Source: Capitulum mitella
Taxonomy: Eukaryota > Arthropoda > Thecostraca > Pollicipedomorpha > Pollicipedidae
Reading direction: 5' to 3'
Assembly (NCBI GenBank): GCA_030062745.1
Contig: CP099846.1
Span: 26,743,201 to 26,807,200 of the forward strand
DNA length: 64,000 bases
In this document: one piece after another, positions 29,826 through 63,351 of the stretch
How the letters are laid out: every line of letters starts with the position of its first letter
Numbering within the stretch: position 1 is the stretch's first letter
Position numbers and translations under genes: made by a program
Notes under the pieces: generated by a model
The model's input: the letters and a program-made list of their open reading frames with translations, nothing else
What the model was told of the DNA's origin: nothing
Databases searched by the model: none

Positions 29826-30582
29826 TGTCCTTTCTGGTACCTGGATCCACCTAAGAGCACTTGCAATGTGTGCATAATATGGCATGTGACAAATGGAAAT
29901 GCTTTCTTGAGAAGGGTAATCTCACCAGATTTAGAATATACGATGAAAACTTCACATTTTCCCCCAAATTTCCCCTTTGATGTGCCTCGGTAACGCCTAT
30001 GACTGTATTATTTCAAAACGTGATGCGCTTATGGTCCCAAAATGCGAATCAGAAGGACGAAACAAAATGATATTCACAATATGTTTCAGTATGATAACTA
30101 ATTATCAATGGTTCATAACTAATGATCAACCATGTACTTATTTCACTTTTTCTGGCAACCGGATCCGTCTATGGGCATTTGCCATATGTATATAATATGG
30201 CATGTGACACATAAGGAAATGTTTCCCAAACACAGATAAGTTCGTCAGACTGAAAATATTTGGTGGAGTGAATAAATATTTGCCAAAAACGTGTACCACC
30301 TTTACGTGCTCCTGATACGCCTATGATTTTTGCAAGGAAAATAACAAGAACAAAAAATTGTCCTTAAATGCAACCAGAAGGCTCGTAAAAGTAAATTTCC
30401 ATTTCCACCCTCTTTTGATCCCCCATCCTCCTTTTCAAAATTTTCGACACTTTTTTTCGAAACGTAGTTCTCACTACCGGAAAACGGCTATCCCCGTTTT
30501 CGCTATGAGATCGGACCAGTAGTTTTCGAGACCGCGGGGGGTTAAAATCTGCTTTTCCCCCTACGGCACGAAATAGGATTAA
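29826..30582 (+). repeat. Repeat F with internal tandem duplication and TTAA end
   Basis: Two internal units (about 29835-30000 and 30145-30325) share GGATCC, then ATAATATGGCATGTGACA, then GGAAATG, and end at ACGCCTATGA. The second half is duplicated at 40490-40937. The right end CCCCTACGGCACGAAATAGGATTAA is a diverged relative of the P1 end, so F is probably a third TTAA-type family. Confidence 0.6.
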
Positions 30583-30652
30583 GACGAACGTACTTTTGCA
30601 TTTGCATGCATGTGAGGTACGTGCATTTGCGCTTGCATTCGTTTGCGCTTAC

Positions 30653-31876
30653 TTAACCCGCCCCTGACTGGGAGGGGGGGGGACAGTTGACCGTCCCCCT
30701 GAGGTTTTTCTAGCATTGCGTGAGAAGAAACAAACAGAGCGCCATGAAACTTCGTGTACCTTTTACTTCATCATGTTTACACCTCGTGTCAAAGTTTTGA
30801 TCCCAGGTCAAGTTAGGTGTCTGACCTAGGTCAGGACAAACGGACCTATGTCCGAAAAGGTTTAGCGCCCTGTAACTTTTTGCAAAACAAGATATCACAA
30901 TAATACTTCCAGGGATTGGTCATCTTCATAGATGCAACAAGTCTGCTATCTCAGATTTTTCGGAATTTTCCGGGTCATTGACCTAAGGTCAAGCTCATTT
31001 TTAAGACATGTCGTCGTTTTTTCGGAAATTGACGGAATATTTCATAACATTTTGAGTGTGGAGTGAAGCAGACATCTAGTTACCGTCATTGGACAAAGTA
31101 TCAATGACTTCCAGCCATTGACCTGAGGTCAAGTCACGAATAACTGTAGTGAGTCAAAATGTACCGCCGTAAAATCAGCGATGAATTACTCAGAATGAAT
31201 GGAAATGGCAGAACTGGCTTGCACAGACGTAAGTAATACCAGGAACCTCGAAAAGTTCCAAAAATCGCATATTTTGGAAATAAACGGCCTCTCGCGAATG
31301 AAGCTTTGCCAATTGTGTAGTTTGGCAACTAATGAATTTTCCAGAATTTAAGCATGAGAAACCATCACAAGAACCACTTAGATCAATAAAATTTACATGC
31401 ATAGGCTTATGTCGCGGTAATAAAGGTACGCTAAAATTATTTCCCGTTAATTCATTCCTGTTTACGGCTGCGTCGCCCGCCGACAATTGACGTGAAAATT
31501 GGCGTGTGTTTAACTCAACGTTTCGGCGTATATATTGAACAAATCTGAGAAATTAGACGTGTATCGGCATCTGCGGACCTTTACTTGTGCGTTCATGCCT
31601 TTACCTGTGCGTTATTAGTCACAGCCCTTGAGATTCAGGCCGTTTCTCGCTATCATACAGTCGGCTATGAGAAGACATATAGGGGACGTACATTGCTTAC
31701 ATATCATCTAAAACTAAAAATGAGACCAGTTTCGAGCTCTACTCGTCACAAGCTTTCCAACGGTGTCCTTATTTTTTATCGTTCGACCAACCGTTCATGA
31801 CTTAGAGGGAGCGGTCAACCGCCCCTCCCCCCAGTCGGGCGTGATCGTCGCCGACCGACGTTCGTGCGCGGGTAAA
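30653..31876 (-). mobile_element. TTAA family P2 element inside copy L
   Basis: The left end TTAACCCGCCCCTGACTGGG begins at 30653. The right end CGTGCGCGGG-TAAA at 31864-31876 has a mutated TTAA. The insertion site is the same as that of the P2 element at 61196-62427 in copy R, so it predates the duplication. It is non-coding and contains TGACCT/AGGTCA clusters at 30788-30838 and 31120-31132. Confidence 0.85.
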
Positions 31877-32557
31877 TCTGCGTACGTACATCTGCCTTAC
31901 ATACATTATTCATACGTATATTTGCTTTACATACATCATCAACACGTACATGTACTTTTGTACATGTGTCCGGTTACCGGACCCGTACTGGAGCTGCGCG
32001 GACGTCGGGGCCCGGACCACGCTGTGCCCCCATCATGGCCAACGCCTCTGGCGCCGTGCGGGGTGTCCCGTGATGCCACCGAGAAAGCCAGAGTGAGTCC
32101 ACGAGTCCTGGTGCGCTCGCTCGCCTGCTGTTCCTTGCACCGACAGGCCGTGGCAGACTGGCTCGTCCCAGCACGCCTGTTTCATAATTTCATTCATTTC
32201 ATTTCACACAGACTGATTTTATAGCTCTTGGTTTCATTCGCAGTATTGCTTGCCGATTTGTTCGAGGTGAGCACAAAGGTCAATCCAGGCTCCGAAACGT
32301 AAGCTAAGCACGAGTCCAGGATTTGGGCCGAAGGGGCGCGGTCCGGAAAAAAGTGGTATCCTCTTGAAACCGATATTTACTGTTATGCTTATTTTTTCAG
32401 ATAACCCGACGTTTTTCGTGCAGTTGTTTCTCCCGCACAGTCTGATATTTTATTTGAAACTGATTTTCTCCGAACAATAGCACAATAACAGAAAGCAGCG
32501 CCGCAAAATGCAGGCGTCCCGAACTCTCTAGACCCGTGTCAGCTGTTATCGGTGCCA
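31877..32557. repeat. TACGT tract and segment B of unit L
   Basis: 31877-31965 is rich in TACGTA/TACATAC units. Segment B (31966-32557) recurs at 44032-44640 and 60602-61086. All three copies keep, in the orientation read here, a pyrimidine tract ending in AG (near 32375-32400) that resembles a splice acceptor. Short frames are similar between copies but broken differently, so no gene is claimed. Confidence 0.55.
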
Positions 32558-33785
32558 TTAACCGTCTTCCTGGCGGGGGGGAGCTGAATCGGCCCCCTCA
32601 GGATTTTTGCTTGCCCATTCCAGGCTTTTTGACGCAGCTTCACGAAACTTAGTCAATTTTCCTAGCTATTCTTTCGACGTACTGTGACAAAATTTCGGAA
32701 TTCTTTTTTGCTCAGGGGCGGAGCCATGCAACGTTTTTGGGACCCACCTCAGGCCATTTTTTGCCCTGTTGAGGGCAAAAGGAAAATGACTGTGAAAAGC
32801 AGCTTTTTTAAGATAAAACTTAAAACTATATATGGATTTATAGGTAAATAGTTGGGCAATATGCAAATACAACTTTGTTCATCTGAGGTCACTTCACAAG
32901 GTAAAGTCAAGGCCAAAAGTCAGAATTTGGTGTCATAGCAAAAATTTTAGACCTGTTTCTTCAAATGGCAAATCCGAAATATAGGTAACGTACGAGGGTG
33001 CCCTCTACTTGTGTATCAAGTTTCAGGTTGATGTCAGGTCGGGTCACGGGGTTATGACTTAAAATGTCAGTGCGCGTAGCCTATATCACAATAGCTGTAA
33101 ACTGGAATTTTTGAAATAGAATAAATTGAAATGACTGGAAACGTTCACAGATTACATTTATGCACACGATATTATTCCAAGTGACTCCAAGGTCACTGGA
33201 GATCATTTAAGGTCAAAGTTCACAAGTTGATCTGAAGACAATGTGGCCATGATAGTTCCCCTTTTTGATGTCCCTGGCACCGCCTATGTTGACATCATAC
33301 AAACATTGTAATACGATTTGTACTTGTTTAGCGTAACATGACTAGCAGAAGTCAAAAAATGCTTTTTTTTTTTTGTTCATTCAGTTGTTGGAAAACTAGT
33401 CCTCCTATTTTTAAAACCCTGTGAAGGGCTATGAATTAACTCAAAATTTCAGATGTGTCACCAGCAGCAAAAGTCCTATTCACAATCTCTGAATTTCATC
33501 GAAATCGGTCCAAAAGCAACGGAGCTATAAGAAGTCCAAAAGTACCTAAGAGCTAAGAGCTTAAGAGCTATAGTAGTAGTTTTGACGTTTTTGTCCCCCG
33601 GTATCCACCCCTTTCAGAGTTTTGAAAGCTTCTGTTTATGAATGTGTAGATTACATCATGACAAATAGATTGCCGTTTGTTGCAATGAAATCGAATGTGT
33701 AGTTCTCGAGATCTCACGGAGGTCGAAATCTGCCCCCCCTGCCGGGAATTGCCCATACTGTCTAGCCCTCTGAAAATAGGGTTAA
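32558..33785 (+). mobile_element. TTAA family P1 element inside copy L
   Basis: TTAA is at 32558-32561 and 33782-33785. The right terminus reads AATAGGGTTAA; the left terminus TTAACCGTCTTCCTGGC has drifted. Copy M has no element at the corresponding position (44028-44031), so the insertion is precisely delimited. It carries AGGTCAAAGTTCA near 33210, a direct repeat of half-sites spaced by one base. Confidence 0.88.
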
Positions 33786-35052
33786 GCTGTCAGGCATTTA
33801 CGATTCAAAATGCAGCGCACTGTGCGACACCGCCTGATGCATTCAGTACATTCGTGTGGCACCACCCGGCGGGAACCGACGTCCTGACGGTTCCCACCGT
33901 GACGGTACCTCCTCTATCCTCAAATACAAACACATCTCACTGGCGCTTGTGAGTTCCTTCAGTCCTACTGCACGATCCGCAGCCGCAGGGCAACACGAAA
34001 GAAGATCAGAGATCTAGGTCAAAGCGATGAGTGAGAACATCAAGGTCCTGGAGAATTTATTTCAATGTATTGTTCACAGTTGCAATGCAATATTGGGTGT
34101 ACATAACAAACGTTTATTGGTGCGTTCAGTGCCGAAAATCGAAAGTCATTTGTGATCTGGAGTCCTCCGATTCCAGATCTACCGTGAATTTCCTATCGTA
34201 AAAGCCCCACAGAATGCAGCCCAGACAGGAAAGCGTTCCACGATGCGTTCAACAATGAAACGATAAAGCAGTCATCGAGTGAAAATCGTCACTTCAACGA
34301 GGCGTCGTGGTCAAGACGCCGTGCAAAGCATCCAGCGAAGACTAGTTGTTTGCCGTTGTTGTAGCGGAGAAATGTTGTAGCTTTGGGAAATCCGTCACGT
34401 TGCGTAGTCTTGCAGGGAAAGCCGTCCCCTCTTCGTCACGAAAAAGCTCCATTAATATAATGACAAACATTCAGCGTTCATATTGGCGCTGATCACTGGC
34501 TCCGGTCCGCTCCGGTGTTCGTATGTTCGGATGGTGCTTGGATGGCAGACACGTTTGTTCACCTTATGATACATGATGCACCATGAAAGGGACATAGACG
34601 CGCTGGACGTCACCACAATCAGTTCATTCTCCATTTACCAAGCGTTATAGAAGACAAACATTATTATTTGCCTGCTTTGTGATGTCGAACAGTTGAACAA
34701 TACTCCACAACCGAATCGAATGTGGGAGAATTGCATGGCCTATGATGTAAGTCAGCATGATAAAAAGCTGTCTTTTTTCACAAGTTATCCTTGTCACAAA
34801 CACAAATTACAGTCGGTGTGTAACTGTGCGAAGGCTATACTAAACACCTCAGATACTGTATGCGGTTCTCTCCAAACGGAACAGTGGCTATCCATGTAGA
34901 CATCGAGCAGTCATAGTTCGCGAATACCTCACAGAGTGCGTCTGAAATCGAATCCATTCTGACAATTTATAGCAACATTTACACGATGTACTCCAGTCCG
35001 TTATCAAAGATCAGCGCCAAGTGATGTTTGTTTTTTGCCGAATTGAACTGAT
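33786..35052. other. Downstream flank of lectin gene L, non-coding
   Basis: Conserved with 58040-59323 (copy R) and partly with 43135-44027 (copy M). It includes CGTTCATATTGGCGCTGATC near 34476-34495, which matches a motif upstream of the gene. A 68-codon frame at 34693-34899 is shared with copy R but decays in M, so it is not annotated as a gene. Confidence 0.5.
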
Positions 35053-35751
35053 TTAGTTCAGACTGTATTCGCAGAGGAAGCCGTGGTTATCACCGCACGT
35101 GTTCAGATCTATGCCAGATTTGCTCATCCGGCAACATGGCAAACCCAAGGCTACTCCAGCTCCTGGAGCAAACCAGTCATCCTTCAGAGTGACAGTTCTG
35201 GTGCCAGCGAAGTTGCCGTACACCGAGTCAGTCGAAGTTTCCCTGATTCCAATCCACGCAGCGCCAACATCGGGAAACATGCCTTTCGCGAAGTCTATCA
35301 GGTTTCCTGTGTCAAGGAACGCTGGGGCTGCGTTGGGATGGTCCTTGGCACACTCTTCCGGCAAATGGAGAGCGTCGGGGTTGTTGTAATCAGAGCCGGC
35401 GGAAATGGATCGGTCTAGGTGGAGTCGGAGTGCCTTGCTGGTGTTCGGAGCTCTCTGGTAGCCTTCAGGAACCCAGGAACTCACGTAAATTTGTTCGATG
35501 GTGCTCGATGGCTGATGCTGTGAGGCGAGGGCCGGATACAGTGCGCATTCCAGACCAGCAGTGGTGCGGTGTATCCAGTGCGTGCAGTCGGCGATTCGAG
35601 CGCAAAGACTGCCACAATGAATTCTGCTACGGGTAGTCGTCGACAGAAGCGGCGTAGTGGAGCGATATGCCATTTCCAGAATGTAGTTTGTGCCTGATGA
35701 GAGATCTATCCAGGCCACCACAAACAGGAGTAAGTGGCACAGGAACAACAT
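35053..35751 (-). CDS. Secreted PAN-like/C-type-lectin-like protein, copy L
   Basis: An intronless frame of 232 residues. The upstream in-frame Met at 35955 would put 68 arginine-rich residues before the signal peptide, so I take the Met at 35751, directly before a hydrophobic signal (residues 1-20, LCHLLLFVVAW). Residues 41-75 with Cys46, 50, 56 and 69 look like a PAN/apple-type region. Residues 128-230 are a CTLD: EECAKDHP (Cys134), WIGIRE at 166-171, CC at 206-207, Cys219 and GFLCEYS with Cys227. The usual EPN/QPD calcium-sugar motifs are absent, so calcium-dependent sugar binding is uncertain. Likely role: an extracellular recognition protein. Copies M and R are close relatives. Confidence 0.75.
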   Translation of the reverse strand: MLFLCHLLLFVVAWIDLSSGTNYILEMAYRSTTPLLSTTTRSRIHCGSLCARIADCTHWIHRTTAGLECALYPALASQHQPSSTIEQIYVSSWVPEGYQRAPNTSKALRLHLDRSISAGSDYNNPDALHLPEECAKDHPNAAPAFLDTGNLIDFAKGMFPDVGAAWIGIRETSTDSVYGNFAGTRTVTLKDDWFAPGAGVALGLPCCRMSKSGIDLNTCGDNHGFLCEYSLN

Positions 35752-36062
35752 GATCGTGGCTGGTGTCAGGTACGACGTCCCTCGGATGGCAAGTACGAAC
35801 CTCCTGCAGCTGAGACGACGGTGCAGCGGAGAGACCTGCCCTCGTAATGGCGCAGCTCGCGGAGCTGGTGTCAGTGGATCCAACCGTCTCAGGCCCCAGC
35901 AGTCGACTGAACGAGGCGTGGTGTTGCGATGCTTGGTAATAATGCAGTGGAACACGCCGTTTTAATGGCGCCATGTTGACGTGCCATGAAAGCGTTCATG
36001 TTGGCGCTGATTATAGGTGCCCTCGGACCACAAGCCGAATATCGCCATCAGTTCTGAGAGCA

Positions 36063-36317
36063 TTAACAAAATAGCATTCCCGGTAGGGTAGAGGCTGATC
36101 CGCTCCTCGGGTTTTTTTTTTGCTTGCCAATTCCAGGATTTTTGACGCTGCTTCATAAAACTTGGCCACGTTTCCTACTTATTCTTTTCCCGTGTTGTAG
36201 CAAAATTTTTCGGTTCTACTTTGTTCAGGGTCGGAGCCAGGCAACGTCTCTGGGAGGCGCCTGAGGCCATTTTTGGTCCTGTTGAAGATAAAAAAATGGT
36301 CGCCAAAAATAGCGTTT
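36063..36317 (+). mobile_element. P1 element fragment interrupted by P2
   Basis: It starts TTAACAAAATAGCATTCCCGG at 36063 and follows the P1 order (GGGTTTTTTTTTGCTTGCCAATTCCAGG and onward) until 36317. There a P2 element is inserted at a position that is TTAA in the intact P1 copy near 51937. The remaining P1 sequence is missing beyond the P2. Confidence 0.75.
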
Positions 36318-37410
36318 TTAACCCGCGTACGATCGTCGGTCGGCGACGATCACGCCCCACGCGGAGGGGAAGGGTGGGGTAGACCGCCCCCTCTAACTCA
36401 TGAACGGTTGGTCGCACGGTAAAAATAAGCACACCGTTGGAAAGCTTGTGACGAGCAGAGCTCGAAACTAGTCCCATTTCTAATTTTAAATCATATGTAA
36501 GTAATTTACGCCCTATATATGTTTTCTCATAGCCGACTGCATGAGACCGAGAAATGGCCTGAATCTCGAGGGCTGACTAATAACCCATAAGTAAAGGCAC
36601 CAACGCACGAATAAAGGTCCGCAGATGCCGATAAACGTCTAATTTCTCAGATTTGTTCAATATATACGCCGAAACGTTGAGTTAAACACACGCCAATTTT
36701 CACGCCGGTTGTCGGCGGGCGCCGCAGCCGTACGCAGTAGGAAACAAAGCGGAACTAATTTTAGTGTTCCTTTATTACCGCGACATAAGCCTATGTATGT
36801 AAATTTTATTGATCTTAGTGGCTCTTGTGATGGTTTCTCATGCTTAAATTTTGGAAAAATCCATTAGTTACCATTGTACACAATTGCCGGAGCTTTATTG
36901 GCGAAAGCCTGTTTATTTCCAAAATATCAAACTTTTTTCATTTTTTGGGGTTCTCGGCATTACTTACGTTTGTGCAAGCCAGTTCTGCCATTTTCTACCC
37001 ATTCTGAATAATTCATCGCTGATTTTGATGGTGGTACAATTTGGCTCACAGCAGTTATTCGTGACCTGACCTCAGGTCAACGACTGGAAGTCATTGATAC
37101 TTTGCCCGATGACGGAGACTAGATGTCTGCTTTGCTCCGTACCAAAAATGCTATGAAAAACTCCGGCAATTCCCGAAAAAAAAACAACGACATCTCAAAA
37201 AACGACAAAATGGGCTTGACCTTAGGTCATCGACTTAGGAAGTTCCAAAAATTCTGAGATATGAAATTTGTTGCATCTGTCAAGATCACTAATCCTTGAA
37301 CGTGTTATTGTAATATCTTTTTTTGCCAAAAAAGTTACAGGGCGCCAAACTTTTTTGGACATAGGTCCGATTGACTTGACCTAGGTCAGACACCTGACTT
37401 GACCTGGGGT
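36318..37410 (+). mobile_element. P2 element nested in P1, right end missing
   Basis: It begins TTAACCCGCGTACGATCGTC at 36318 and follows P2 to about 37410 (GACCTGGGGTCA), where it joins repeat D abruptly. The missing right end indicates a deletion or recombination breakpoint at the junction. Confidence 0.75.
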
Positions 37411-38564
37411 CAACAGTAAACAACAATCTGATTTGAAACCACCTCGAAAGCACTTTTTGTCGGTCGCACGGTCCAATCTCAACATTTGTGACCTGCAGGC
37501 CCTCGAGAACGAAGGCACAGCTCAGTGGCCTGGGTTGACATCAACTTTAAATTTTCAGGACATGTGTAAAAAGGTCCAAAGCTTAGGTAGACCAAAATTC
37601 AGCCTATTGAGCCCAATGATTCAGCTTCTGTCTCGGAAAAACAGCTGATGATTGTCTCCTTGACTGATAAAGGTTGATATAGGGATTAAGCTCTGAGCTA
37701 ACTTGGGGGTTGGCTTTGTGTCGGTTCTAAGGCAAAAGGAGAGTCTACGGGATACTTGGCCTTCCCAGAAAGGTATAATTTGGCCAGTACCTGACATATT
37801 TATTATGAACTTCCGAACTATGAAATTAAGTTGTTTCTTCACTGGGAAGTATCACAAATTACTTCTAGAGACGCTACGTCATGCACTGGGATCGTGTATT
37901 TACGTGAACGTATGTTGGAAAGAGCATTAAAACAGCCACCAAATTTCACGGCCTTGCGTCGAATAGTTGAGGAACTGCAGGCAAAAAACGGTCGGTGACT
38001 TTTTCACCAAAACTTCACTGCCTGGCCGGACGAGCTGGCAGCGGAAAATTTCGTGACGTCACAACGAATCACAGACCGTTCAGCCGGGTGCCGCTTTGAG
38101 TACTGAATAGAGCAATTTTCATTGCGATTTTTGCAGCTCTGGCAACTGATTTGGAATCAGGGGGTCGGAACTGATCAGGTTTTATGAGAACAAAAGAAAA
38201 TGTTTCTAGAGGTCACTACTCTATTCTTGTTCAGAACTTGACGCGGTGTCCAGACTCATTTCCCTCTCATACCTCCCCCCGCCGCGGGCGAATTCTGAAT
38301 ATGTCTCGTCAGCTGCCGCCGCCGGTAACTCGTGAGAACGAACCGCTGCAATGCGACTCCCCAGAACGCGTAGGGAGGTGGGGGGAGGGGTGGGGTGCGA
38401 GTCGTGTGGTGTGCGCTTATTGGCCGTCCGCTGCGTGCGGCGCGCTTGCGCTTAACTTTTTATCTAATCTGGTAATTTCCCGAGCGTTCTTAGATGGCGG
38501 GATAATTAAGCATCGCCCGCGGCGACCTGCATCCATGCAGGAAGCACTTTTGTAGAGGAAGCCT

Positions 38565-39210
38565 GTGGTACCACGGCGTTCACCACAACAAAAAAGCCGA
38601 GCTTTGGTTGATCGGTGCTTCGGTCGAATCAGTGGTACATCACTTCGGTCGATCAACTTGTTTCCTGACACTGTAGTGTCAGGAAACAAGCTGCCTACGT
38701 GCGCAGAAGTGCTGCAGTTATATGTTGAGCTTTATCGTGTGGATGAACTTACCCAAAGGGAGGCAAAACACAGGTGTCCGCAAAGTAATGGGGATGTGGA
38801 ACAAAACTCATATTCCCATTGCACTGGAGCGAACGTGATAACGAAGCTCGACAGGAAGCTTGATCAGTACTGTGCTCTCCTCGAAGGCAAATGAAGGAGC
38901 TCCTTCCCGCAAATGGAGAAGGAGAAAGAATGTAGGAGCAGCCTCAATGGCTTCTTTGAAATTGTCTATATCGGTGCCATGACCATCTCAAAATCCAAGA
39001 GTGCCAAGACTTCCTTCAGACCCAACGGGAGCTAGGCCGCCGAAGCTTCATGGCGGGAGTCGATAAGTTCCTTTCTGGGAACGAGGAGCGAGCTCTTCAG
39101 CGACACCAGCAAACCACAGAAAGGGCCCGCCATCAGACTGAAGAACCGAGTGCGAGCAACTGCCCGATTGGAATCCTCGTTTACCGACAGCATACAAATG
39201 GCGGATTAAG
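38565..39210 (+). pseudogene. Relic coding region in repeat D
   Basis: Three successive frames give a plausible protein: NKLPTCAEVLQLYVELYRVD, then VMGMWNKTHIPIALER, then NVITKLDRKLDQYCALLEGK, and later QECQDFLQTQRELGRRSFMA with VDKFLSGNEERALQRHQQ. Frameshifts separate the blocks. The same blocks appear in the inverted copy around 45340-45971. From memory, a W-x-K-x-x-IP helical segment followed by a coiled region recurs in uncharacterised arthropod ORFs; I cannot verify this and assign no function. Confidence 0.4.
38657..38690. repeat. Palindrome with 16-base arms in repeat D
   Basis: CTTGTTTCCTGACACT, a 2-base GT centre, then the exact complement. It is preserved in the inverted copy at 45846-45879. 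Confidence 0.85.
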
Positions 39211-39621
39211 ATGACCCGCAGCCATTCGCCATGCCTTCTCCTTCGAAGCGACCCTGCAAGAGGGCTGAGAACATTTTCACTCATGGTCTGGCAGCAGGAT
39301 CTTCAGACTTCACAATGTCTCCAAATAATTGATTTGGGCCGGCCCGTCTTCTCAGGGGAAAGTCTCGCGATATTCCCACGGACACCTCACTTTGATATTG
39401 CCTCCATGACGGTAAATAAGTCGCATTTTCTCACAACTTTTTGAAGGAGCTTTAAGCCAACAATGGACCTTGAGTTGTGAAGTGTCTCATTTGCCCACCC
39501 GTTACGTATCGATGCTGCGGTAAATCAAAAGGAAGGTCTATGCATATATGTTTAGCTTTTCTTTCGTATACGTAATTTGCGTTTACATGCATAACGCATA
39601 CGTACTTCTGAGTATACGTAC

Positions 39622-40489
39622 AAAAAAACATAAAAGATCCGGAGTCAAAATCAGCAAACTGAGGTCAACCGGTGTCATTAACCTCGGCTGACCTTCCAAA
39701 GGCCCCGATGTACGATTTAAATTATTTCCGTTGGCTTGGGTTCTAAGAACAACCGGTAAACTCAGTTCCTTGGAAATGTTAAGAGCGGGTATGTCAGCGG
39801 CCGACTGGTTGTGGAGTGTCACGACTTTTGACCTTTCTTATCAAGCAATTTTAAACTTAGCTGATGAGTAGCAGGCACGTAGGACAATGTCGCACCAAAC
39901 TGTAGAACAATCGTACAAACGAAAGGTTGTACGACCAGTCAACATTTATCTGCATGGTGGTCCAATTTGCGCAATAACCTCAGCGAAATCGTTCGTCAGA
40001 ATCTCAATAGATGGATCTGCCAGCGACAGTATACACTAAACCTCTGGTGTAATACTACATCCCATGCGCGGTTAACAGGAGTAACATGAGTGTAAGATTA
40101 AACCTCAAAACTCCATACTTCTCAGGAATATTAGACGTATCAGCAAGCTATTATAGATAAAAACACAGTATGAAACATGGCCAATGTTTTGTAATGGCTT
40201 AGTCCCTTCCAGAAGCTCTGAAACTGAAAAAATATGAAACATGGCCAATGCTTTGTACTAGCTTAGTACCTTCCAGAATCTCTGATGCCAATCAGCAGGC
40301 GCTTGCAGCGGAGCTGGCGCCATTTTTGTTTTCGACGCAATGTTGGGTGACAAAGTGACAAAGGCTCTAACTCAGATGGCTGACTGACGCCAGACACAAG
40401 ACTTGACTCAAGACTCTGGATACCTTAGCCCAAGAAGCTCTGTTTCCTAGCTCAAACAAACAAACAATATTTTATCTGTTGATCTTATT
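39622..40489. other. No gene; small tandem duplication
   Basis: A unit of about 64 bp containing ATGAAACATGGCCAATG and CTTCCAGAA-CTCTGA occurs twice in tandem (about 40167-40285). Nothing else is recognised. Confidence 0.45.
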
Positions 40490-42082: not shown

Positions 42083-44783
42083 GATTGCCATGTTCGGCGT
42101 GCGGTCCGGAGCTATTAATCAGCGCCAGCCTGAACGCTCAATGTTTGTCATTCTGTGGCGGCCAAGGAAGACACGCAAGCATAGCGACCTCAAAAGAAAA
42201 TCTATATCCAGCGATGATTATCATGTCTAGCGTGTTTCACTGGTTTACCAGCAGCCAGAAGCACTGCAACACTGTTCAATCGACTGCTGGGGCCTGGACG
42301 GGTGGACACACTGAGACCAGCTCCGCGAGCTGCGTCATCACGAGGACAGGTCTTTCCGCTGCACCGTCGTCTCAGCTGCAGGAGGTTCGTACTTGCCATC
42401 CGAGGGACGTCGTACCTGACACCAGCCGCGATCATGTTGTTCCTAAGCCACTTACTCCTGCTTGTGGTGACCTGGATAGATCTCTCATCAGGAATCAACT
42501 ACATTCTGGAAACGGGACATCGCTCCACTACGCCGCTTCTGTCGACGACTACCCGTAGCAGAATTCAGTGTGGCAGTCTTTGCGCTCGAATCGCCGACTG
42601 CACGCACTGGATACACCGCACCACTGCTGGTCTGGAATGCGCTACTGTATCCGGCCCTCGCCTCAGAACATCAGCCATCGAGCACCATCTGAACAAATTT
42701 ACGTGAGTTCCTGGGTTCCTGAAGGCTACCAGAGAGCTCCGAACACCAGCAAGGCACTCCGACTCCACTTAGACCGATCCATTTCCGCCGGCTCTGATTA
42801 CAACAACCCCGACGCTCTCCATTTTCCGGAAGAGTGTGCCAAGGACCATCCCAACGCAGCCCCAGCGTTCCTCGACACAAGAAACCTGATAGACTTTGCA
42901 AAAGGCATGTTTCATTCACCTCGCAAGGCGTGGATTGGAATCAGGGAAACTTCGACCGACTCGGTGTACGGCAATTTCGCCGGCAACAGAACTGTCACGC
43001 TGAAGAATGAGTGGTTTGCTGCATGGGCTGGAGTCTCCATGGGTTTACCATGCTGCCGGATGGACAGCGTTGGTATAGATCTGAACACGTGCGATCCAAA
43101 CCACGGCTTCCTCTGCGAATACAGTCTTTACTAGCATTACTTCGATTCGGTAAAAAGAGCTCATTACCGTCCGCTAATGCTCGGTAATGGACAACGTTAC
43201 CTTGTGTAAATGTTGTCATTTGTTGTCAAAATGAGTTCCATTCCAAGCACACCCTGTAACCTATTTTGCGAGCTATGACTGGTCAAATATCTAGCTTTTG
43301 TCTTGCCTTGGGATAACCAAGGCAAGATTTGGACAGAACTGTGTGTAGTGCTTGAGCTGTTTAGTATAGTCTTCGTACAGTTATAGGTGGACCGTAATTG
43401 ATATTCGTGACAAGGATATTTTGCAAAATAGTATGTCTATCATGCTGGCTTGCATCATGCCATGGACTATTCTCACACACGATTCGATTGTGGAGCACCG
43501 TTCAGGTTTTTGACACAACAAAACAAAAAATAATAATAACGCTTGTTTCCTATAACGCTGGGTTAAAGGGAGATGAACTCTGTGGTGATGTGCAACGCAT
43601 ATGTGTCCTTTTATAGTGCACCATCTATCATAAGGTGAACAAAAAAATTATCATCCAAGCACCATTCCAATATACAACGCCCGGCGTAGCTCGGAGCCAC
43701 TGATGTTTGTCATTATACTAACGGGAATGTTTCGTGATGTCGAGGAGACGGCTTTCCCTGGTTGACTACGCAGCTCACCGGCCTTGCCAAAACTACATCT
43801 TTGCTCTACTAGTACAACGGCAAACAGCTGATCTTAGCTAAATGATTTGCGTGGCGTCTCGAGCATGACGCCTCGTTGTAGTTTATGTGTGAGGTTGGAG
43901 AAGGCTACCGTCACTGTGCAAATCGTCAGAACGTCGGTTCCCAACGGGTGGTGCCACGTGAATGCACTGAATGCACCAGGTGCTGTCGCACAGTACGCTA
44001 CATTTGTAAACGTAAATGCTTGACAGCTTTATGGCGCTGATTACAGCTGGCGCGGGTCTAGAGAGTTCGGGGCGCCTGCATTTGGCGGCGTTGCTTTCGA
44101 CTGTTGTGGTAATGCCAGGAGTAAATCAGTTTCATGGAAAATAATGCATTGTGTGGGGAGAAACAATTAGACAAGGGACGTCGGGATATCTGGAAAAGTA
44201 AGTATAATGGTAAATATCGGATACAGGAGGATACGGCGTCTTTTTTTGGACCACGCCCTTCCAGCTCAGGTCCTTGATCCCCGTCTGGCTTACGTTTCGG
44301 AGCCTGGATTGACCTTTGTTCTCGCCTCGAATAAACCAAAAGCAAAGCTGGGAAGGAAACCGAGAGCTAAGAAATGGATAAAACACGTGCGAAAGGAAAT
44401 GAGTGCAATAATGAAACCGGCGTGCTGGGACGAGCCAGCCTGCCACGGCCTGTCGGTGCAAGGAACAGCAGGCGAGCGAGCGTACCAAGACTCCTGGACT
44501 CACTCCGGCCTTCTCGGCGGCGTCAAGGGACACCCCGCACGGCGCCAGGGGTGTGGGCCATAATGGGGGCACAGCACGTTCCCCGGCCCCGACGTCCTCT
44601 CGGCTCCAGTCCGAGTCCGGTAACTGCACACATGTACAAAAAGCATATGTACGAAAGGGTAATGTTTGGAAAGCAGATGTACGTACGAAGATCTACGTAA
44701 GTGCAAATGTGCGTGCGACAAATGCACCTATCCTTGCATGTACGTAAGCGCAAATATACGTAAGCGCAACTGTTCGTATCGCA
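42083..44783 (+). repeat. Copy M of the lectin-bearing unit, lacking both TTAA inserts
   Basis: It shares the 5' flank (ATTAATCAGCGCCA and upstream), lectin gene, 3' flank, segment B (44032-44640) and TACGT tract with copies L and R. At 44028-44031 it has GACAGC-TTTA-TGGCGC where L and R carry P1, and its TACGT tract runs on without the P2 element. It directly abuts inverted repeat D. Confidence 0.8.
42434..43134 (+). pseudogene. PAN-like/C-type-lectin-like gene, copy M, frameshifted
   Basis: Start codon at 42434 and signal peptide match copies L and R. Two single-base insertions relative to copy L, near 42643 (after the last PAN-like cysteine codon region) and near 42690, shift the frame by two in total. 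Translation from the start leaves the conserved frame after GLEC and stops at 42706. The CTLD frame is intact from about 42691 to the stop at 43132-43134. The CTLD keeps WIGIRE, CCRM and GFLCEYS; the residues before HGFLCEY are DPN rather than GDN. Sequencing error cannot be excluded. Confidence 0.75.
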
Positions 44784-51681: not shown

Positions 51682-52908
51682 TTAACCCTATTCCCGGCAG
51701 GGGGGGGGGCGGAATCCGCCCCCCCTCGGGTTTTTTGCTTGCCAATTCCAGGCTTTTTAACGCAGCTTCACGAAACTTCGTCACTTTTCCTAGCTATTCC
51801 TCCTACGCGCCGTGACAAAATTTCGAAATTCTATTTTGCTCAGAGCCGGAGCCAGGCAACGTTTTTGGGAGGCACCTCAGGTCATTTTTGGCCATGTTGA
51901 GGGTAAAAGGAAAATGTCTGCCAAAAACAGAGTTTGTTAAGATAGAACTTAAAACTTTATATGAATATATAGCTAAATAGTTGGGCAATGTGCATATGTA
52001 ATTTTGTTTATCTGAGGTCACTTTACAAGGTCAGGTCAAGGTCAAAAGTCAAAATTTGTTTTTTTGCAATAATTTCGGCACCATTTTTTCAAATGCCAAA
52101 CCCGGAATATATATGACGCAGAAAGATGCCCTCTACCTGTGTACCAAGTTTCAGCTTGATATCAGGTCGGGTCACGGAACTATGACCTAAAATGTCAGTG
52201 CAGCTGGCGGCTGGCGAAAAGCCAAAAAGCCAAAAAATGATTTTTTTGGAATAGAGTGAATTTAATCGATTAAAAACGTTTACAGATAATATTGAATGCA
52301 CACGACATCATTCCAGGTGACCCCAAGGTCACTGGAGGTCATTTAAGGTCAAAAGTCACAAGTTGATCTGAGAAACGTGTGACCATGACAGTTCCCCCTT
52401 TCTCATGTCCCTGGCACCGCCTATGCTAACATTATACAAACATTGTAATGCGATTTGTACTTCTTTAGCATAACATGACTAGCAGAAGCTAAAAAAGTGT
52501 TTTTACCTTTTTTGTTCATTCCGTTATTAGAAAACTTATCTCCCTATTTTTGAAACCCTATGAACGCCCATGAATTTTTTCAAAATTTCAGATTTGCATA
52601 CCCATGGTAAAAGCCCTATCCATAATCTCTCGATTGATGCCAGTTTCATCGAAATCGGTCCATAAACAACGGAGTTATAAAAAGTCAAAAAGTACCCCCC
52701 ATTTTGACATTTTTGCCTCCCTGTATCCACAAATTTAAAAATTTTGAAAATTTCTTTTCATCAAAATGTAGTTCACGTCATGGCAAATCGATTGCCGTTT
52801 GTTGCGATGAAATCGGATAAGTAGTTCTCGAGATCTCAGGGGGGGGCCGAATCCGCCCCCCCTGCCGGGAATCGGCCATACCGTCTAGCCCTCCGGGAAT
52901 AGGGTTAA
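51682..52908 (+). mobile_element. TTAA family P1 element, best-preserved copy
   Basis: TTAA occurs at 51682-51685 and 52905-52908. Both termini retain TTAACCCTATTCCCGG (the right one inverted as CCGGGAATAGGGTTAA). It has poly-G/poly-C blocks inside each end and no transposase. AGGTCAGGTCAAGGTCA lies at 52028-52044 and a second half-site cluster at 52316-52360. Confidence 0.9.
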
Positions 52909-53021
52909 TGCACTGTACGGTGTGGTTGGGGCTATACAATCAACACAATTGAAATGTTAATACAATCAGTCCCTCCACACCGTCCCCTCTGCAAGCAACG
53001 AGCAAGCAGCATATTACGACA

Positions 53022-53712: not shown

Positions 53713-53773
53713 ACAAAGATTCCGCCCGGTGGGGGGGACAAATCGGATCAAGGTGGCCCTCGTAATCAGTGGG

Positions 53774-56400: not shown

Positions 56401-57045
56401 CTTGGCTGCGCTACTGCAGTTGAACCGGGACTGAGGGAACGATCACAGTGAGCAGACGAAGATAAACACCGAAATATGACGCGAAACCGCCAGCAGCCAA
56501 AAAAGCTCGCCGACGTCTGGGAATTTCGTAACGTCACATAAATTCGGCCGCCGTTTCAAGGTCAGCGCACTGTCTGAGCGAATATCTCGTGAACTAGACG
56601 CTGTATAGCTATTCGAATGGTGGATTTGTAATCAGCATCCAGAGTTCTATTGGATGAGTATAAAAACGAAAACGAAATCGATCACTACTCTTCTCATATC
56701 CGTGCTGCGAAAGGGAGGGGGCATTATCTGTGGTAAGCATCTTATGCGAGTTAGCTCATTCAGGTTGCATGTAACATTGGTAGGTAAACGTTGATCAAAA
56801 TAAATGAAATTCTGCACAAATGTTTTTTTTCGACGCGTTTAACATAAGCATACAAAAGCACTTTTAAAACGTGCACAAAAGCATTTGACGACCACCCTAA
56901 CACCCTGTTCATCCCCAGCCTTCTCCCCTTTGGATCCGTGCCGGCACCTGCTGCAAAGGGTGCTGTCTCAAACATAGCGGAAGTGTGGCATGCATCCTTC
57001 CTGTACTGGTGACATATAGCTTTGTCCGTGAGGTCCAGAAGCGAC
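56401..57045. other. No gene; possible hAT-like end at 56925-56945
   Basis: CTCCCCTTTGGATCCGTGCC at 56925-56944 resembles the right end of the element at 53782-55735. No partner end was found. Nothing else is recognised. Confidence 0.35.
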
Positions 57046-57340
57046 GGCGATATTGGGCGTGTGGTCCCGGGCCACTTATAATCAGCGCCAACATGAACGC
57101 TTCCGTGGCACGCCAACATGGCGCCATTAAAACGGCATGTTCCACTGGATTATTACCACGCACCGCAACACCACGCTTCGTTCAGTCGACTGCTGGAGCC
57201 TGAGACGGTTGGATCCACTGACACCAGCTCCGCGAGCTACGCCATTACGAGGGCAGGTCTCTCCGCTGCACCGTCGTCTCAGCTGCAGGAGGTTCGTACT
57301 TGCCATCCGAGGGACGTCGTACCTGACACCAGCCACGGTC

Positions 57341-58039
57341 ATGTTGCTCCTGTGCCACTTACTCCTGCTTGTGGTGGCCTGGATAGATCTCTCATCAGGC
57401 ACGAACTACATTCTGGAAATGGCATATCGCTCCACTACGCCGCTTCTGTCGACGACTACCCGTAGCAGAATTCATTGTGGCAGTCTTTGCGCTCGAATCG
57501 CCGACTGCACGCACTGGATACACCGCACCACTGCTGGTCTGGAATGCCTACTGTATCCGGCCCTCGCCTCAGAACATCAGCCATCGAGCACCACTGAACA
57601 AATTTACGTGAGTTCCTGGGTTCCTGAAGGTTACCAGAGGGCTCCGAACACCAGCAAGGCACTCCGACTCCACCTAGAGCGATCCATTTCCGCCGGCTCT
57701 GATTACAACAACCCCGACGCTCTCCATTTTCCGGAAGAGTGTGCCAAGGACCATCCCAACGCAGCCCCAGCGTTCCTTGACACAAGAAACCTGATAGACT
57801 TTGCAAAAGGCATGTTTCAATCAACTCGCAAGGCGTGGATTGGAATCAGGGAAACTTCGACTGACTCGGTCTACAGCAACTTCGCCGGCGACAGAACTGT
57901 CACGCTGAAGAATGAGTGGTTTGCTGCATGGGCTGGAGTCTCCATGGGTTTACCATGCTGCCGGATGGATAGCTTTGGTATAGATCTGAACACGTGCGGT
58001 GATAACCACGGCTTCCTCTGCGAATACAGTCTGAACTAA
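57341..58039 (+). CDS. Secreted PAN-like/C-type-lectin-like protein, copy R
   Basis: An intact intronless frame of 232 residues. The Met at 57341 precedes a leucine-rich signal (LLLCHLLLLVVAW); the frame is open upstream to a Met at 57137, but those 68 residues would bury the signal, so the internal start is preferred. All nine cysteines of copy L are conserved (46, 50, 56, 69, 134, 206, 207, 219, 227). Compared with L there are 24 residue differences, 16 of them within residues 160-212 of the CTLD. Codon structure is undisturbed. A TTATAAT sits at 57076-57082 upstream, but promoter function is unproven. It may be an immune or adhesive lectin; substrate unknown. Confidence 0.78.
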   Translation: MLLLCHLLLLVVAWIDLSSGTNYILEMAYRSTTPLLSTTTRSRIHCGSLCARIADCTHWIHRTTAGLECLLYPALASEHQPSSTTEQIYVSSWVPEGYQRAPNTSKALRLHLERSISAGSDYNNPDALHFPEECAKDHPNAAPAFLDTRNLIDFAKGMFQSTRKAWIGIRETSTDSVYSNFAGDRTVTLKNEWFAAWAGVSMGLPCCRMDSFGIDLNTCGDNHGFLCEYSLN

Positions 58040-59323
58040 ATCAGTTCAATTCGGCAAAAAACAAACATCACTTGGCGCTGATCTTTGATAACGGGCTGGA
58101 GTACACTGTGTAAATGTTGCTATAAATTGTCAGAATGGATTCGATTTCAGACGCACTCTGTGAGGTATTTGCGAACTATGACTGTTCGATGTTTACATGG
58201 ATAGCCACTGTTCCGTTTGGAGAGAACCGCATACAGTATCTGAGGTGTTTAGTATAGCCTTCGTACAATTACACACCGACTGTAATTCGTGTTCGTGACA
58301 AGGATAACTTGTGAAAAAAGACAGCTTTTTATCATGCTGACTTACATCATAGGCCATGCAATTCTCCCACATTCGATTCGGTTGTGAAGTATTGTTCAAC
58401 TGTTCGGCATCACAAAGCAAGCAAATAATATTATTGTTTTTTTTTCTATAACGCTGGGTAAATGGAGAATAAACTGATTGTGGTGACGTGCAGCGCGTAT
58501 ATGACCCTTTCATAGTGCATCATCTATCACAAGGTGAACAAAAATGTTTGCCATCCAAGCACCATCCGAACATACGAACACCGGAGCGGACCGGAGCCAG
58601 TGATCAGGGCCAATATGAACGCTGAATGTTTGTCATTATATCAATGGAGCTTTTTCGTGACGAAGAGGGGACGGCTTTCCCTGCAAGACTACGCAGCGTG
58701 CCGAGTTTCTCAAAACTACAACATTTCTCCGCTACGACAACGGCAAACAACTAGTCTTCGCTGAATGCTTTGCACGGCATCTTGACCACGACGCCTCGTT
58801 GAAGTGACGGTTTTCACGCGATGACTGCTTTACCGTTTCATTGTTGAACGCATCGTGGAACGCTTTCCTGTCTGGGCTGCATTGTGTGGGGCTTTTACGG
58901 TACGAAGTTCACGGTAGATCTGGAGTCGGAGGACTCCAGATCAGTCGGAGGACTCCAGATCACAAATGACTTTCGGCACTGAACTCACCAGTAAACATTT
59001 ATTACCTACACCGAACATTGCACTGCAGCGATGAACAATACATTGAAATAAATTCCCAAAAACCTCAATGTCCTCCCCCGCCGCTCTGACACAGATCCGA
59101 GACCTTGTTTCCGTGTTGCCCTGCGGCTGCGTATCGTGGATTAGGACTGAAGGAACTCACAAGCGTCAGTGAGATGTGTTTGTGTGTGAGGATGGAGGAG
59201 GTACCGCTACGGTGGAAACCGTCAGGACGTCGGTTCCCGTCGGGTGGTGCCACGCGAATGTACTGAATGCACCAGGCGGTGTCGCACAGTGCGCTGCATT
59301 TTGAATCGTAAATGCCTGACAGC
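58040..59323. other. Downstream flank of lectin gene R, non-coding
   Basis: Matches 33786-35052. It contains TGATCAGGGCCAATATGAAC near 58601-58620, similar to the motif upstream of the gene at 57079-57105. The frame 58193-58513 (minus) is the counterpart of a frame in copy L and is not supported as a gene. Confidence 0.5.
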
Positions 59324-60601
59324 TTAACCCTATTTTCAGAGGGCTAGACGGTATGGCCAATTCCCGGCAGGGGGGCGGATCCGGCCCCCCGTGAGATCTC
59401 GAGAACTACACATCCGATTTCATTGCAAAAACGGCAATCTATTTGTCATGATGTAAACTACATAAAAACAATATTTTTTCAAAAGAAAATTTTCATAAAA
59501 AGAAGCGTTCGGAATTTTGAAAGGGATGGATAAAAATTTGACAAAAACATCAAAACTACTACTATAGCTATTAAGTTCTTAGCTCTTAGGTATTTTTGGA
59601 CTTCTTATAACTCCGTTGTTTATGGACCGATTTCGATGAAATTGGCATGAATCGAGAGATTGTGAATAGGACTTTTACTCCTGGTGACATTTGAAAATTT
59701 TGATTACATTTGAAATTTTGGGTAGATTCATAGGTGTTCACAGGGTTTTAAAATAGAAGGAATAGTTTTTCAACAACTGAATAAACAAAAAAAAAACTTT
59801 TTTTGGACTTCTGCCAGTCATGTTACGCTAAAGAACTACAAATCGTATTACAATGTTTGTATGATGTTAGCATAGGCGGTGCCAGGGACATGAAAAAGGG
59901 GGAACAATCATGGCGACATGCTCTTCGGATCAACTTGTGAACTTTGACCTTAAATGATCTCCAGTGACCTTGGAGTCACTTGGAATAATATCGTGTGCAT
60001 TTAATGTTAACTGTAAACGTTTCCAATCATTTGAATTCACTCAATTTCAAAAATTCCGTTTCACAGCTATTGTGATATAGGATACGCGCACTGACATTTT
60101 AGGTCATAACCCCGTGACCCGACCTGATTTTAATCTGAAACTTGATACATAAGTAGAGGGCACCCTTGTACGTTACCTATATTCCGGGTTTGCCATTTCA
60201 AGAAACAGCGCTAAAATTTTTGCTATGACACCAAATTCTGACTTTTGGCCTTGACTTTACCTTGTGAAGTGACCTCAGATGATCAAAGTTGTATTTGCAT
60301 ATTGCCCAACTATTTACCTATAAATCCATATATAGTTTTAAGTTTTATCTTAAAAACGCTGCTTTTCACAGTCATTTTCCTTTTACCCTCAACAGGGCAA
60401 AAAATGGCCTGAGGTGGGTCCCAAAAACGTCGCCTGGATCCGCCCCTCAGAAAAACAGAATTTCGAAATTTCGTCATAGTACATAGAAAGAATAGTTAGG
60501 AAAAGTGACTAAGTTTCGTGAAGCTGCGTCAAAAAGCCTGGAATGGGCAAGAAAAAAGCCTGAGGGGGCCGATTCAGCCCCCTTGCCGGGAATAGGGTTA
60601 A
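59324..60601 (-). mobile_element. TTAA family P1 element inside copy R
   Basis: TTAA is at 59324-59327 and 60598-60601. The ends read TTAACCCTATTTTCAGAGGG and CCGGGAATAGGGTTAA. It is at the same insertion site as 32558-33785 in L. It contains GAACTTTGACCT near 59939-59950, the inverse of the spaced half-site pair seen in L. Confidence 0.88.
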
Positions 60602-61195
60602 TGGCACCGATGACAGCTGACACGGGTCTAGAGAGTTCGGGATGCCTGCATTTTGCGGCGCTGCTTTCTATTATTGTGCTATTGTTCGGAGAAAATCAGT
60701 TTCAAATAAAATATCAGACTGTGCGGGAGAAACAACTGCACAGAAAACGTCGGATTATCTGGAAAAATAAGCATAACAGTAAACATCGGGTTCGGGAGGA
60801 TACGGCTTTTTTCCAGACCGCGCCCCTCCGGCTCAAATCCTGGACTCGTGCTTGGCTTACGTTTCGGAGCCTGGATTGACCTTTGTGCTCACCTCGAACA
60901 AATGGGCGAGCAATACTGCGAATGAAACCAAGAGCTATAAAATCATTCTGTGTGAAATGAAATGAATGAAATGATGAAACCGGCGTGCTGGGACGAGCCA
61001 GTCTGCCCCCCGCACGGCGCCAGAGGCGTTGGCCATGATGGGGGCACAGCGTGGTCCGGGCCCCGATATCCGCGCAGCTCCAGTACGGGTCCGGTAACCG
61101 GACACATGTACAAAAGTACATGTACGTGTTGATGATGTATGTAAAGCAAATATACGTATGAATAATGTATGTAAAGCAGATGTACGCACGCAAAT
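60602..61195. repeat. Segment B and TACGT tract of unit R
   Basis: Matches 31877-32557 inverted and 44032-44780 direct. A deletion of about 90 bp near 61010 joins GCCCCC directly to CGCACGGCGCC. No supported gene. Confidence 0.55.
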
Positions 61196-62427
61196 TTAAT
61201 CCGCGCACGACCGTCGGTCGGCGACGATCACGTCCGACTGGGGGAGTTGAGCGCCACCTCTAACTCATGAACGGTTGGTCGCACGATAAAAATAAGGGCA
61301 CCGTCGGAAAGGTTATGACGAGTAGAGCTCGAAACTGGTCTCATTTTTAGTTTTAGATAAAATGTAATCAATTTACGTCCCATATATGTTTTCTCATAGC
61401 CGACTGTGTGAGAGCGAGAAACGGCCTGAATCTCAAGGGTTGTGACTAATAACGCTTAGGTAAAGGCACCAACGCACAAGTAAAGGTCCGCAGATGCCGA
61501 TACGCGTCTAATTTCTCAGATTTGTTCAACGTATACGCCGAAACGTTGAGTTAAACACACGCCAATTTTCACGTCAGCTGTCGGCGGGCGATGCAGCGGT
61601 ACGCAGTAAGAGACAAAGGGGAACTAATTTTAGCGTTCCTTTATTACCGCGACATAAGCCTATGCATGTAAATTATATTGATCTAAGTGGTTCTTGTGAT
61701 GATTTCTGACGCTTAAATTCTGAAAAAATTCATTAGTTACTAAACTACACAATTGGCGAAGCTTTATTGGCGAGAGCCTTTTTAGAATAGCTAGGAAAAG
61801 TGTTTTTCCAAAATATGCAATTTTTGGGAACTTTTCGAGGTTCCTGGTATTACTTACGTCTGTGCAAGCCAGTTCTGCCATTTTCCACTCATTCTGAGTA
61901 ATTCATCGCTGATTTTGACGGTGGTACATTTTGGCTCATAACAGTTATTCGCAACGTGACCTGATGTCAATGGCTGGAAGTCATCGATACTTTGTTCAAT
62001 GACGGTAACTAGGTGACTGCCTCACTCCACACTCAAAATGATCTGAAAAATCCTGCCAATTTCCGAAAAAAACAGACATGTCTTAAAAATGGGCTTGACC
62101 TTAGGTCAATGACCCGGAAAATTCTGAAAAATCTGAGATAGCAGAATTGTTGCATCTATGAACATGACTAATCCCTGGAAGTATTATTGTGATATCTTGT
62201 TTTGCGAAAAAGTTACAGGGCGCTAAACGTTTTTGGACATAGGTCCGTTTGACCTGACCTAGGCCAGACACCTGACTTGACCTGGGGTCAAAACTTCGAC
62301 ATGAGGTGTAAAAGTGATTAAGCAAAAGGTACACGAAGTTTCATGGCGCTCTGTTTGTTTCTTCTCACGCAATGCTAGAAGACCCTCAGGGGGCCGGTGA
62401 ACTGTCCCCCCAGTCGGGGCGGGTTAA
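61196..62427 (+). mobile_element. TTAA family P2 element inside copy R, full length
   Basis: TTAA is at 61196-61199 and 62424-62427. The left end is TTAATCCGCGCACGACCGTC and the right end AGTCGGGGCGGGTTAA. No transposase. It carries TGACCTGACCT and GACTTGACCTGGGGTCA motifs at 62251-62290. Confidence 0.85.
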
Positions 62428-62497
62428 GTAAGCGCAAACGTATGCAAGCGGAAATGCACATACCTCAAATGTACGCAAATGCAAAAGTACGTGCGTC

Positions 62498-63351
62498 TTA
62501 ACCCTATTCCATGCTCCAGTCCAGTGGAGTGAAGCAGACACCTAGTTACCGTTATTGGGCAAAGTATCAATGGCTTCCAGTCATTGACCTGAGGTCAGGT
62601 CACGAGTAACTGTAGTGGGCCAAATGTACCACGGACAAAATCGGCGATGAATTAATCGGAATGGGTAGAAAATGGCAGAACTAGCTTGCACAGACGTAAG
62701 TAATACCAGGAACCTCAAAAAATTTGAAAAAATAGGATATTTTGGAAATAAACAGAAATATGGAAATAAAATAACTCTCGCGTATAAAGCTCCGCCAATT
62801 CTGTAGATTGGTAACTAATTGATTTTTTTCGAAATTCAAGCATGAAAATCCATCACAAGAACCACGAAGATCAATAAAATTTGCATAGGTAGGTTTTTTT
62901 CGCGAAAATAAAGCAGCGCTAAAATTAGTTCCCATCAATTTGTTACCGCATACGGCTGCGGCGCACGCCAACAGTTGGCGCGAGACTTGCCGTGTCTTTA
63001 ACTCAACGTTTCGGCGTATATATTGAACAAATCTGGGAAATTAGACGTGTATCGGCATCCGCGGACCTTTACTTGTGCCTTTACCTATGCGTTATTAGTA
63101 ACAGCCCTTGAGATTCAGGCCATTTCTCGGTCTCATGCAGTCGGCTATGAAAAAACATATATAGGGCGTAAATTGCTTACATATTTTCTAAAACTAAAAA
63201 TGAGACCAGTTTCGAGTTCTACTTGTCACAAGGTTTCCCAACGGTATACTTATTTTTATCGTGCGACCAACCGTTTGAGTTAGAGGGGACGGCCAACTGC
63301 CCCCCCCAGTCGCACACGTTCGAAACCGACCGACGGTCGTGCGCGGGTTAA
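62498..63351 (-). mobile_element. Short chimeric TTAA element (P1-like end plus P2 body)
   Basis: The left end reads TTAACCCTATTCC, the P1 terminus, but from about 62523 the sequence is P2 interior, running to the P2 terminus CGTGCGCGGGTTAA (TTAA at 63348-63351). At 854 bp it is shorter than either parent family. Confidence 0.65.

Follow-up and report, generated by a model that had tools for sequence, protein, structure and literature searches.

C-type lectin-like proteins, PAN/apple-domain proteins, the 185/333 immune genes of sea urchins and piggyBac-type miniature inverted-repeat transposable elements (MITEs) are the closest described systems for a locus of the barnacle Capitulum mitella, at which a single-exon gene for a protein with a PAN/apple-like half and a short C-type-lectin-like domain (CTLD) recurs among small TTAA elements, here called A and B. 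We analysed this locus in a window of 64,000 nucleotides, the whole stretch C8:26743201-26807200 of the assembly, with genome searches over 477,042,490 bases in 16 contigs. The motifs EPN, QPD and WND mark the calcium and sugar site of C-type lectins. The products of the barnacle gene family resemble C-type lectin-like proteins (Lectin_C; mannose-binding protein C) in their C-terminal invariant cysteines, in a tryptophan (W166) and in a profile match at E 2.1e-6, but those of the C8 genes (G1-G5) differ from C-type lectins in lacking these motifs. With PAN/apple proteins (PAN_1, PAN_4; microneme apple domains) the family products share four invariant N-terminal cysteines, a PAN_1 match in 6 of 17 family members and weak matches to microneme structures in the PDB, although G1 and G2 fall below the curated cut-offs. 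The 185/333 genes are described as closely linked and short, and conversion and recombination between repeats are proposed for them (PMC1988830). The barnacle array on C8 likewise has linked short genes with conversion, and by analogy may have an immune role; its protein is unrelated and its copies are far fewer. Among transposons, mPok of Daphnia is presented as a piggyBac-type MITE (PMC4912750). Element B, and less surely A, resembles such MITEs in TTAA ends, a short terminal inverted repeat (TIR) beginning CCC, a length of ~1.2 kb and the lack of a visible transposase (TTAA and TIR features as given in PMC10813416).

The locus is best read as ordinary local duplication with transposon passengers; its conversion mosaic and a contrast between two parts of the exon are most noteworthy. 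We assign a probability of about 0.83 to a local gene array that arose by segmental duplication, carries A and B as passengers, underwent ectopic conversion and most likely encodes secreted recognition proteins.

A five-copy gene array and its repeated units

A preliminary description of the window had reported three lectin-like copies in both orientations, two of them with intact signal peptides and cysteines. Self-comparison confirmed this observation as real, though incomplete: the three copies (G1, G2 and G3) are present in the window, and a whole-genome DNA search with the coding sequence (CDS) gave six rows, corresponding to five genes that share a ~47-kb stretch at C8 26.778-26.825 Mb. 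G1 and G2 are open and carry a hydrophobic, signal-like N-terminus (judged from hydrophobicity) and the family cysteines, whereas the frame of G3 is broken by two one-base insertions. G4, G5 and further unit pieces lie beyond the window and are given in window-equivalent coordinates.

35053..35751, minus strand, G1: 232 aa, open single frame with signal-like start, PAN/apple-like part and short CTLD
57341..58039, plus strand, G2: 232 aa, open; protein identity to G1 90%
42302..43134 (gene within), plus strand, G3: third copy; DNA identity to G1 91%
window-equivalent 68411-69148, G4: open; an in-frame insertion close to the signal-like start, total length 245 residues
window-equivalent 81283-81981, G5: open copy

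The larger repeated unit proposed around each gene copy was recovered as U1, U2 and U3, together with its TACGT tract and both insert elements.

30572..36056, minus strand, U1: comprises tract, segment, 3′ flank and G1; carries inserted A and B
57036..62508, plus strand, U2: inverted counterpart of U1, carrying A and B at matching sites; ~88 bp of the segment missing
~42084..44817, plus strand, U3: more diverged, without A and B; start read by eye
31960..32556, strand not assigned, segment between tract and B: stretch 31990-32556 matched in the C8 cluster only
34300..35040, strand not assigned, 3′ flank of G1: matched in the C8 cluster only

In self-comparison, pieces of U1 and U2 are 90-92% identical, and U3 is 78-83% identical to either; because the matches are hundreds to thousands of bases long at 78-92%, they far exceed chance. 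As genome queries, the 3′ flank (34300-35040) returned seven rows and the segment (31990-32556) five, all in the C8 cluster, and every genome match to the DNA of gene, 3′ flank and segment lies at C8 26.775-26.825 Mb, within the sensitivity of the search. That matches to these parts came from one cluster gives no support to a dispersed mobile unit. The unit borders are nested, U3 and the corresponding unit U4 remaining alike for ~0.86 kb past the U1/U2 border on its upstream side (41226-42282 versus 71042-69300, 86-90%; U4 carries ~0.7 kb extra), a pattern expected from repeated segmental duplication. The preliminary description had offered capture of the gene by a mobile or readily duplicated unit, with segmental duplication as the alternative; in view of the local matches and nested borders, ready duplication and that alternative are supported, and mobile capture is not. 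These comparisons support local, partly inverted segmental duplication as the probable source of the copies. A second gene inside the segment was considered and rejected: its reading frames, open over some stretches and interrupted over others, are not the same from copy to copy. Immediately after the stop codon of G5 comes ~1.4 kb of other sequence (L008, window-equivalent ~79876-81266), whose ends are GC-rich and inverted-looking by eye and which is perhaps another small transposon.

The unit had also been described as laced with TTAA elements. This applies to U1 and U2, where A and B occupy the same sites, and not to U3, from which both are absent.

30655..31873, plus strand, A element of U1 (P1 of the preliminary description): ~1.2 kb, in the TACGT tract
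61201..62425, minus strand, A element of U2: site matches that in U1
32558..33785, plus strand, B element of U1 (P2 of the preliminary description): ~1.23 kb, with TTAACC ... GGGTTAA ends
59324..60601, minus strand, B element of U2: site matches that in U1
51682..52908, plus strand, B copy outside the lectin units
36063..36321, plus strand, truncated B copy: lies immediately upstream of U1; its end is the TTAA at which an A copy starts
36317..37413, minus strand, truncated A copy: adjoins the truncated B copy

Counted over near-full-length copies, with shorter pieces omitted, B shows TTAACC at the left end in six of seven copies and GGGTTAA at the right end in five of seven, and thus has the TTAA and inverted ends of a piggyBac-type MITE. 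A shows TTAACCCG at the left in four of six copies and TTAA at the right in three of six; no open reading frame (ORF) of at least 120 aa lies wholly within the A element of U1 (30655..31873). In U3 the B site is uninterrupted, with a single TTTA tetranucleotide, and copies of both elements are also present away from the lectin units (51682-52908 and others). The simplest order would be insertion of A and B into the ancestor of U1 and U2, and the transposon-like pieces look like passengers of the array, not its vehicle.

Gene conversion among the C8 copies

Judged from how the copies group along their length, mosaic gene conversion within the C8 cluster is clear. The homogenised block was delimited in G1.

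35061..35912, minus strand, homogenised block of G1: from the TCAGT at 35910 to the last codons

The initiator (Inr)-like TCAGT motif stands at 35910 in G1 and 57182 in G2, ~160 nt ahead of the start codon, and TCAGT or TCAAT occupies the matching place in G3-G5.

Synonymous divergence (dS) is 0.04-0.14 across the ten pairs of five genes and 0.07-0.14 among G1-G4, whereas the 3′ flank distance K is 0.20-0.35 in five of the six G1-G4 pairs (G5 was left out of the flank distances for its non-homologous adjacent 3′ flank). Exons are thus far more alike than 3′ flanks in five of these six pairs. The relation is reversed for G1-G2, with a flank K of 0.055 and a dS of 0.247 at the CTLD end. In the 719 sites of 3′ flank, G3 differs from G1 at 194 and from G2 at 191 (26-27%); in the 800 sites of block 35860-35061, the corresponding differences are 61 and 40. 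Within sites 35307-35113, 31 of 40 variable sites join G2 with G3 against G1, a score reached in 0 of 10,000 shuffles.

In a run test of the block over ten pairs, G2-G5 gave a 28-site run (0 of 2000 permutations) and G3-G5 reached p 0.0005; G2-G3 (p 0.009) was lost on correction for ten pairs, and the remaining seven pairs ranged from p 0.0135 to 0.72. With the flanks included, G2-G3 and G3-G4 stood out among the six G1-G4 pairs (0 of 2000 each; others p 0.0075 to 0.62). At the CDS end, 2 of 287 aligned sites separate G2 from G5, compared with 16 of 358 in the preceding part, and the adjacent 3′ flank of G5 is 71.7% identical to that of G2. The shuffles assume exchangeable sites, and we therefore give more weight to the change in grouping along the sequence. 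The homogenised stretch has a sharp 3′ edge at the stop codon and a 5′ edge that varies between pairs.

A PAN-like/CTLD family across the genome and a contrast within its exon

A protein search of the genome returned 33 rows at E up to 10, including the five local genes, and identified 15 distant loci at E<=1e-3 on seven contigs (C1, C3, C8, C9, C13, C15 and C16). Twelve of the 15 have one open row covering at least query residues 23-229; L028 begins at residue 42, C16:10043635 covers 19-194, and the rows of L022 are split, yet form one 234-residue frame. The family alignment comprises 17 proteins, four from the array (G1, G2, G4 and G5) and the others from 13 distant loci out of the 15. Omitted were G3, for its broken frame, L026, which tblastn at 1e-3 did not return, and C16:10043635, for which there was no locus. 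Protein starts were picked by hydropathy; L020 begins inside its frame without a methionine, and the start of L028 is uncertain.

Eight cysteines, four per half, are invariant in 17/17. Those of the C-terminal half (C134, C206, C219 and C227) are the core cysteines of a CTLD by sequence, and W166 is equally invariant; those of the N-terminal half are C46, C50, C56 and C69. Lectin_C matched 11 of the 17 members at E<=0.05 (best 4.7e-6) and PAN_1 matched six at the same threshold (best 2.4e-5). The family profile matched 74 PDB sequences at E<=10, with mannose-binding protein C at the top (E 2.1e-6); the best 60 of these 74 comprise four microneme proteins (E 0.046 or worse, N-terminal half), one entry labelled TNFalpha and otherwise CTLD-named proteins. 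Taken together, the Pfam and PDB profile matches make the CTLD assignment firm for the family, as far as sequence can carry it, and the PAN/apple assignment of the N-terminal half probable. Classical sugar binding is unlikely, since EPN, QPD and WND occur in none of G1, G2, G4 and G5, nor in the three frames of G3.

Other searches returned less. A single-sequence PDB search gave no CTLD and two cytochrome c chains (E 0.036 and 0.1), the CTLD part alone had no PDB match, and an NCBIfam search gave none. Viral contigs held no relatives, and of five pattern matches in prokaryote genomes none was confirmed. As to a possible retrogene origin, the family is single-frame; by eye, the borders inspected show no poly(A) tail or target duplication, and no intron-bearing relative was found. 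An open-access literature search yielded no description of a single-exon PAN+CTLD family, which our results point to in this barnacle, with conversion in one cluster.

The clusters on C13 (four genes) and C16 (three genes) repeat part of the C8 pattern, the CDS being mostly more alike than the 3′ flank. For L027-L031, the 5′ flank (86-99%) is not clearly below the CDS (85-100%), and L028 shares no 5′ flank. When the exon was split ten codons ahead of the CTLD tryptophan (W166 of G2), with G3 left out, 14 of 15 pairs had a lower dS in the first part than at the CTLD end (C8 5/6, C13 6/6, C16 3/3; the exception is G2-G5). Fisher tests on one pair per cluster gave p 0.006, 0.011 and 0.003, for pairs chosen after the table had been seen and in clusters whose pairs are non-independent. 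Inside the C13 CDS no pair was significant in the run test (smallest p 0.073), and the sole strong run in C13 (p 0.0005) lies in the 3′ flank. The C1 paralogs L018 and L019 (11.98 Mb), 11 kb apart, are 96-100% identical over 3.6 kb including flanks and are uninformative here; they are a very recent duplication or an assembly duplicate. A uniform first exon part and a more variable CTLD end thus recur in three clusters. We consider it a tentative and rather improbable extension that the family diversifies by way of a divided exon, with a signal/PAN part kept uniform among neighbours and a CTLD end free to diverge and be exchanged in blocks, as a germline repertoire of variable lectins.

Origin of the array, alternatives and neighbouring sequence

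Under the favoured reading, the array would have started from one member of the single-exon PAN/apple and C-type-lectin-like family near an old dispersed repeat and the TACGT tract. Successive duplication of local segments, in part with inversion, would have raised it to at least five copies in ~47 kb. The TTAA-target, MITE-like elements A and B may have inserted and then been copied along, without carrying the gene, while ectopic conversion between copies maintained likeness over much of the exon and exchanged segments of the CTLD, the 3′ flanks diverging meanwhile. Most likely, the genes encode secreted recognition proteins, the PAN part perhaps serving surface or protein contact and the CTLD ligand contact. 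An immune or adhesive use would fit a small array under conversion whose products are two-domain recognition proteins, probably secreted.

A tempting alternative treats the gene as the cargo of a mobile DNA unit that has TTAA elements at its borders and moved as a composite. A and B copies do lie in or beside units, and inverted A copies (30797-31876 and 36317-37413) stand on both sides of G1. Of the parts searched genome-wide, as the preliminary description had envisaged, the arm part described below is dispersed. However, at the sensitivity of the search, gene, flank and segment gave no match outside the cluster, and thus no dispersed copies with common ends. Element ends do not surround every gene copy, U3 having neither A nor B; the outer A copy of U1 is cut and adjoins the truncated B; and both elements also occur away from lectin units. 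We therefore hold composite movement to be the least probable alternative, local duplication taking the place of transposon gene capture. Hardly more credible is conversion templated by complementary DNA (cDNA), in which reverse-transcribed mRNA overwrote the copies: the block starts near the Inr-like TCAGT/TCAAT found in all five copies, likeness falls at the stop codon and the family is single-frame, but a transcript should carry a 3′ untranslated region, the G2-G5 tract begins within the exon, the G3-G4 likeness extends upstream of the putative start, and the inspected borders show no poly(A) trace by eye.

That some copies are haplotigs or misassembled repeats is very unlikely, though the U1-U2 non-coding divergence of ~5% and the nearly identical C1 pair would suit it: U1 and U2 lie in opposite orientations next to different sequences, and the other G1-G4 pairs have a 3′ flank K of 0.20-0.35. 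Somewhat less remote, yet still unlikely, is nucleotide-level selection (codon use, overlapping regulatory sites) as the cause of exon likeness. It would account for exons exceeding 3′ flanks in likeness in C13 and C16 too, and for the lack of a significant run inside the CDS of any C13 pair; it leaves unexplained why parts of the C8 exon group the copies differently, the CTLD end of G2 matching G5 and G3 rather than its flank-closest relative G1.

Several observations weigh against a local array with passenger elements and exon conversion. The genome DNA search skipped very common words and scored the best candidates alone, so that old, diverged copies elsewhere could be missed, and an arm query (37414-39500) gave at least 61 rows over many contigs, with the best 40 of 999 first-look candidates scored. 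The A site in U3 lies in a tract too diverged for a clean empty site to be read. PiggyBac-type elements can excise cleanly, and U3 could for this reason have lost B rather than never had it. Taken singly, G1 and G2 have Lectin_C and PAN matches below the Pfam cut-offs, and AlphaFold2, with three window sequences as input, gave a mean predicted local distance difference test (pLDDT) score of 31. Between G3 and G4, 2 of 206 sites upstream of the block are different, as are 32 of 699 CDS sites and 122 of 690 sites of 3′ flank; as their likeness peaks upstream of the gene, homogenisation reaches beyond the exon. Near 32181, a piece of the segment 60 columns long is 97% alike in U1 and U3, which speaks against a strictly exon-limited process. 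Ratios of nonsynonymous to synonymous divergence (dN/dS) of 0.46-0.86 indicate either weak constraint or a degree of diversifying change, and conversion makes it difficult to tell the two apart. Finally, another flank copy, at 77453-78749 beside G5, is 91.3% like the flank of G2, so that a younger duplication and rearrangement may account for some of the likeness between G2 and G5. Even so, exchange has to be invoked, because G1, whose flank is equally similar, differs from G2 at 37 of 287 CDS-end sites.

The remaining features of the window surround these units. An inverted pair of arm repeats flanks the G3 region:

37414..39622, plus strand, arm copy 1: inverted partner of 44786-47111; ~38243-39297 is a dispersed repeat part
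44786..47111, minus strand, arm copy 2: adjoins U3; inverted copy of the dispersed part near 45236-46300

Outside the cluster, the dispersed part (~38243-39297) is matched at 69-78% identity, and by these matches the stretch 38243-39297 is a separate old dispersed repeat. Six open pieces of the arm repeat gave no Pfam match better than E 0.038. The inverted repeat 37411-47114 was considered as one long-TIR transposon and rejected, as its ends show no matching target duplication by eye and the arm contains the dispersed repeat.

A cuticle-protein gene lies at 11298-11936 (Chitin_bind_4, E 1.3e-14), in keeping with a chromosome of arthropod type, and none of ten other window ORFs scanned had a Pfam match at E<=0.1. 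The decayed transposase noted earlier was found again at 49141-50052, a Tigger/pogo-type relic in two pieces: DDE_1 at E 1.3e-15 (49141-49647) and a sub-threshold HTH_Tnp_Tc5 at E 0.0056 (49687-50052). A third repeat, C, occurs at 30119-30576 and 40484-40939 in copies 95% identical, the first ending at TTAA and the second abutting a truncated A copy.

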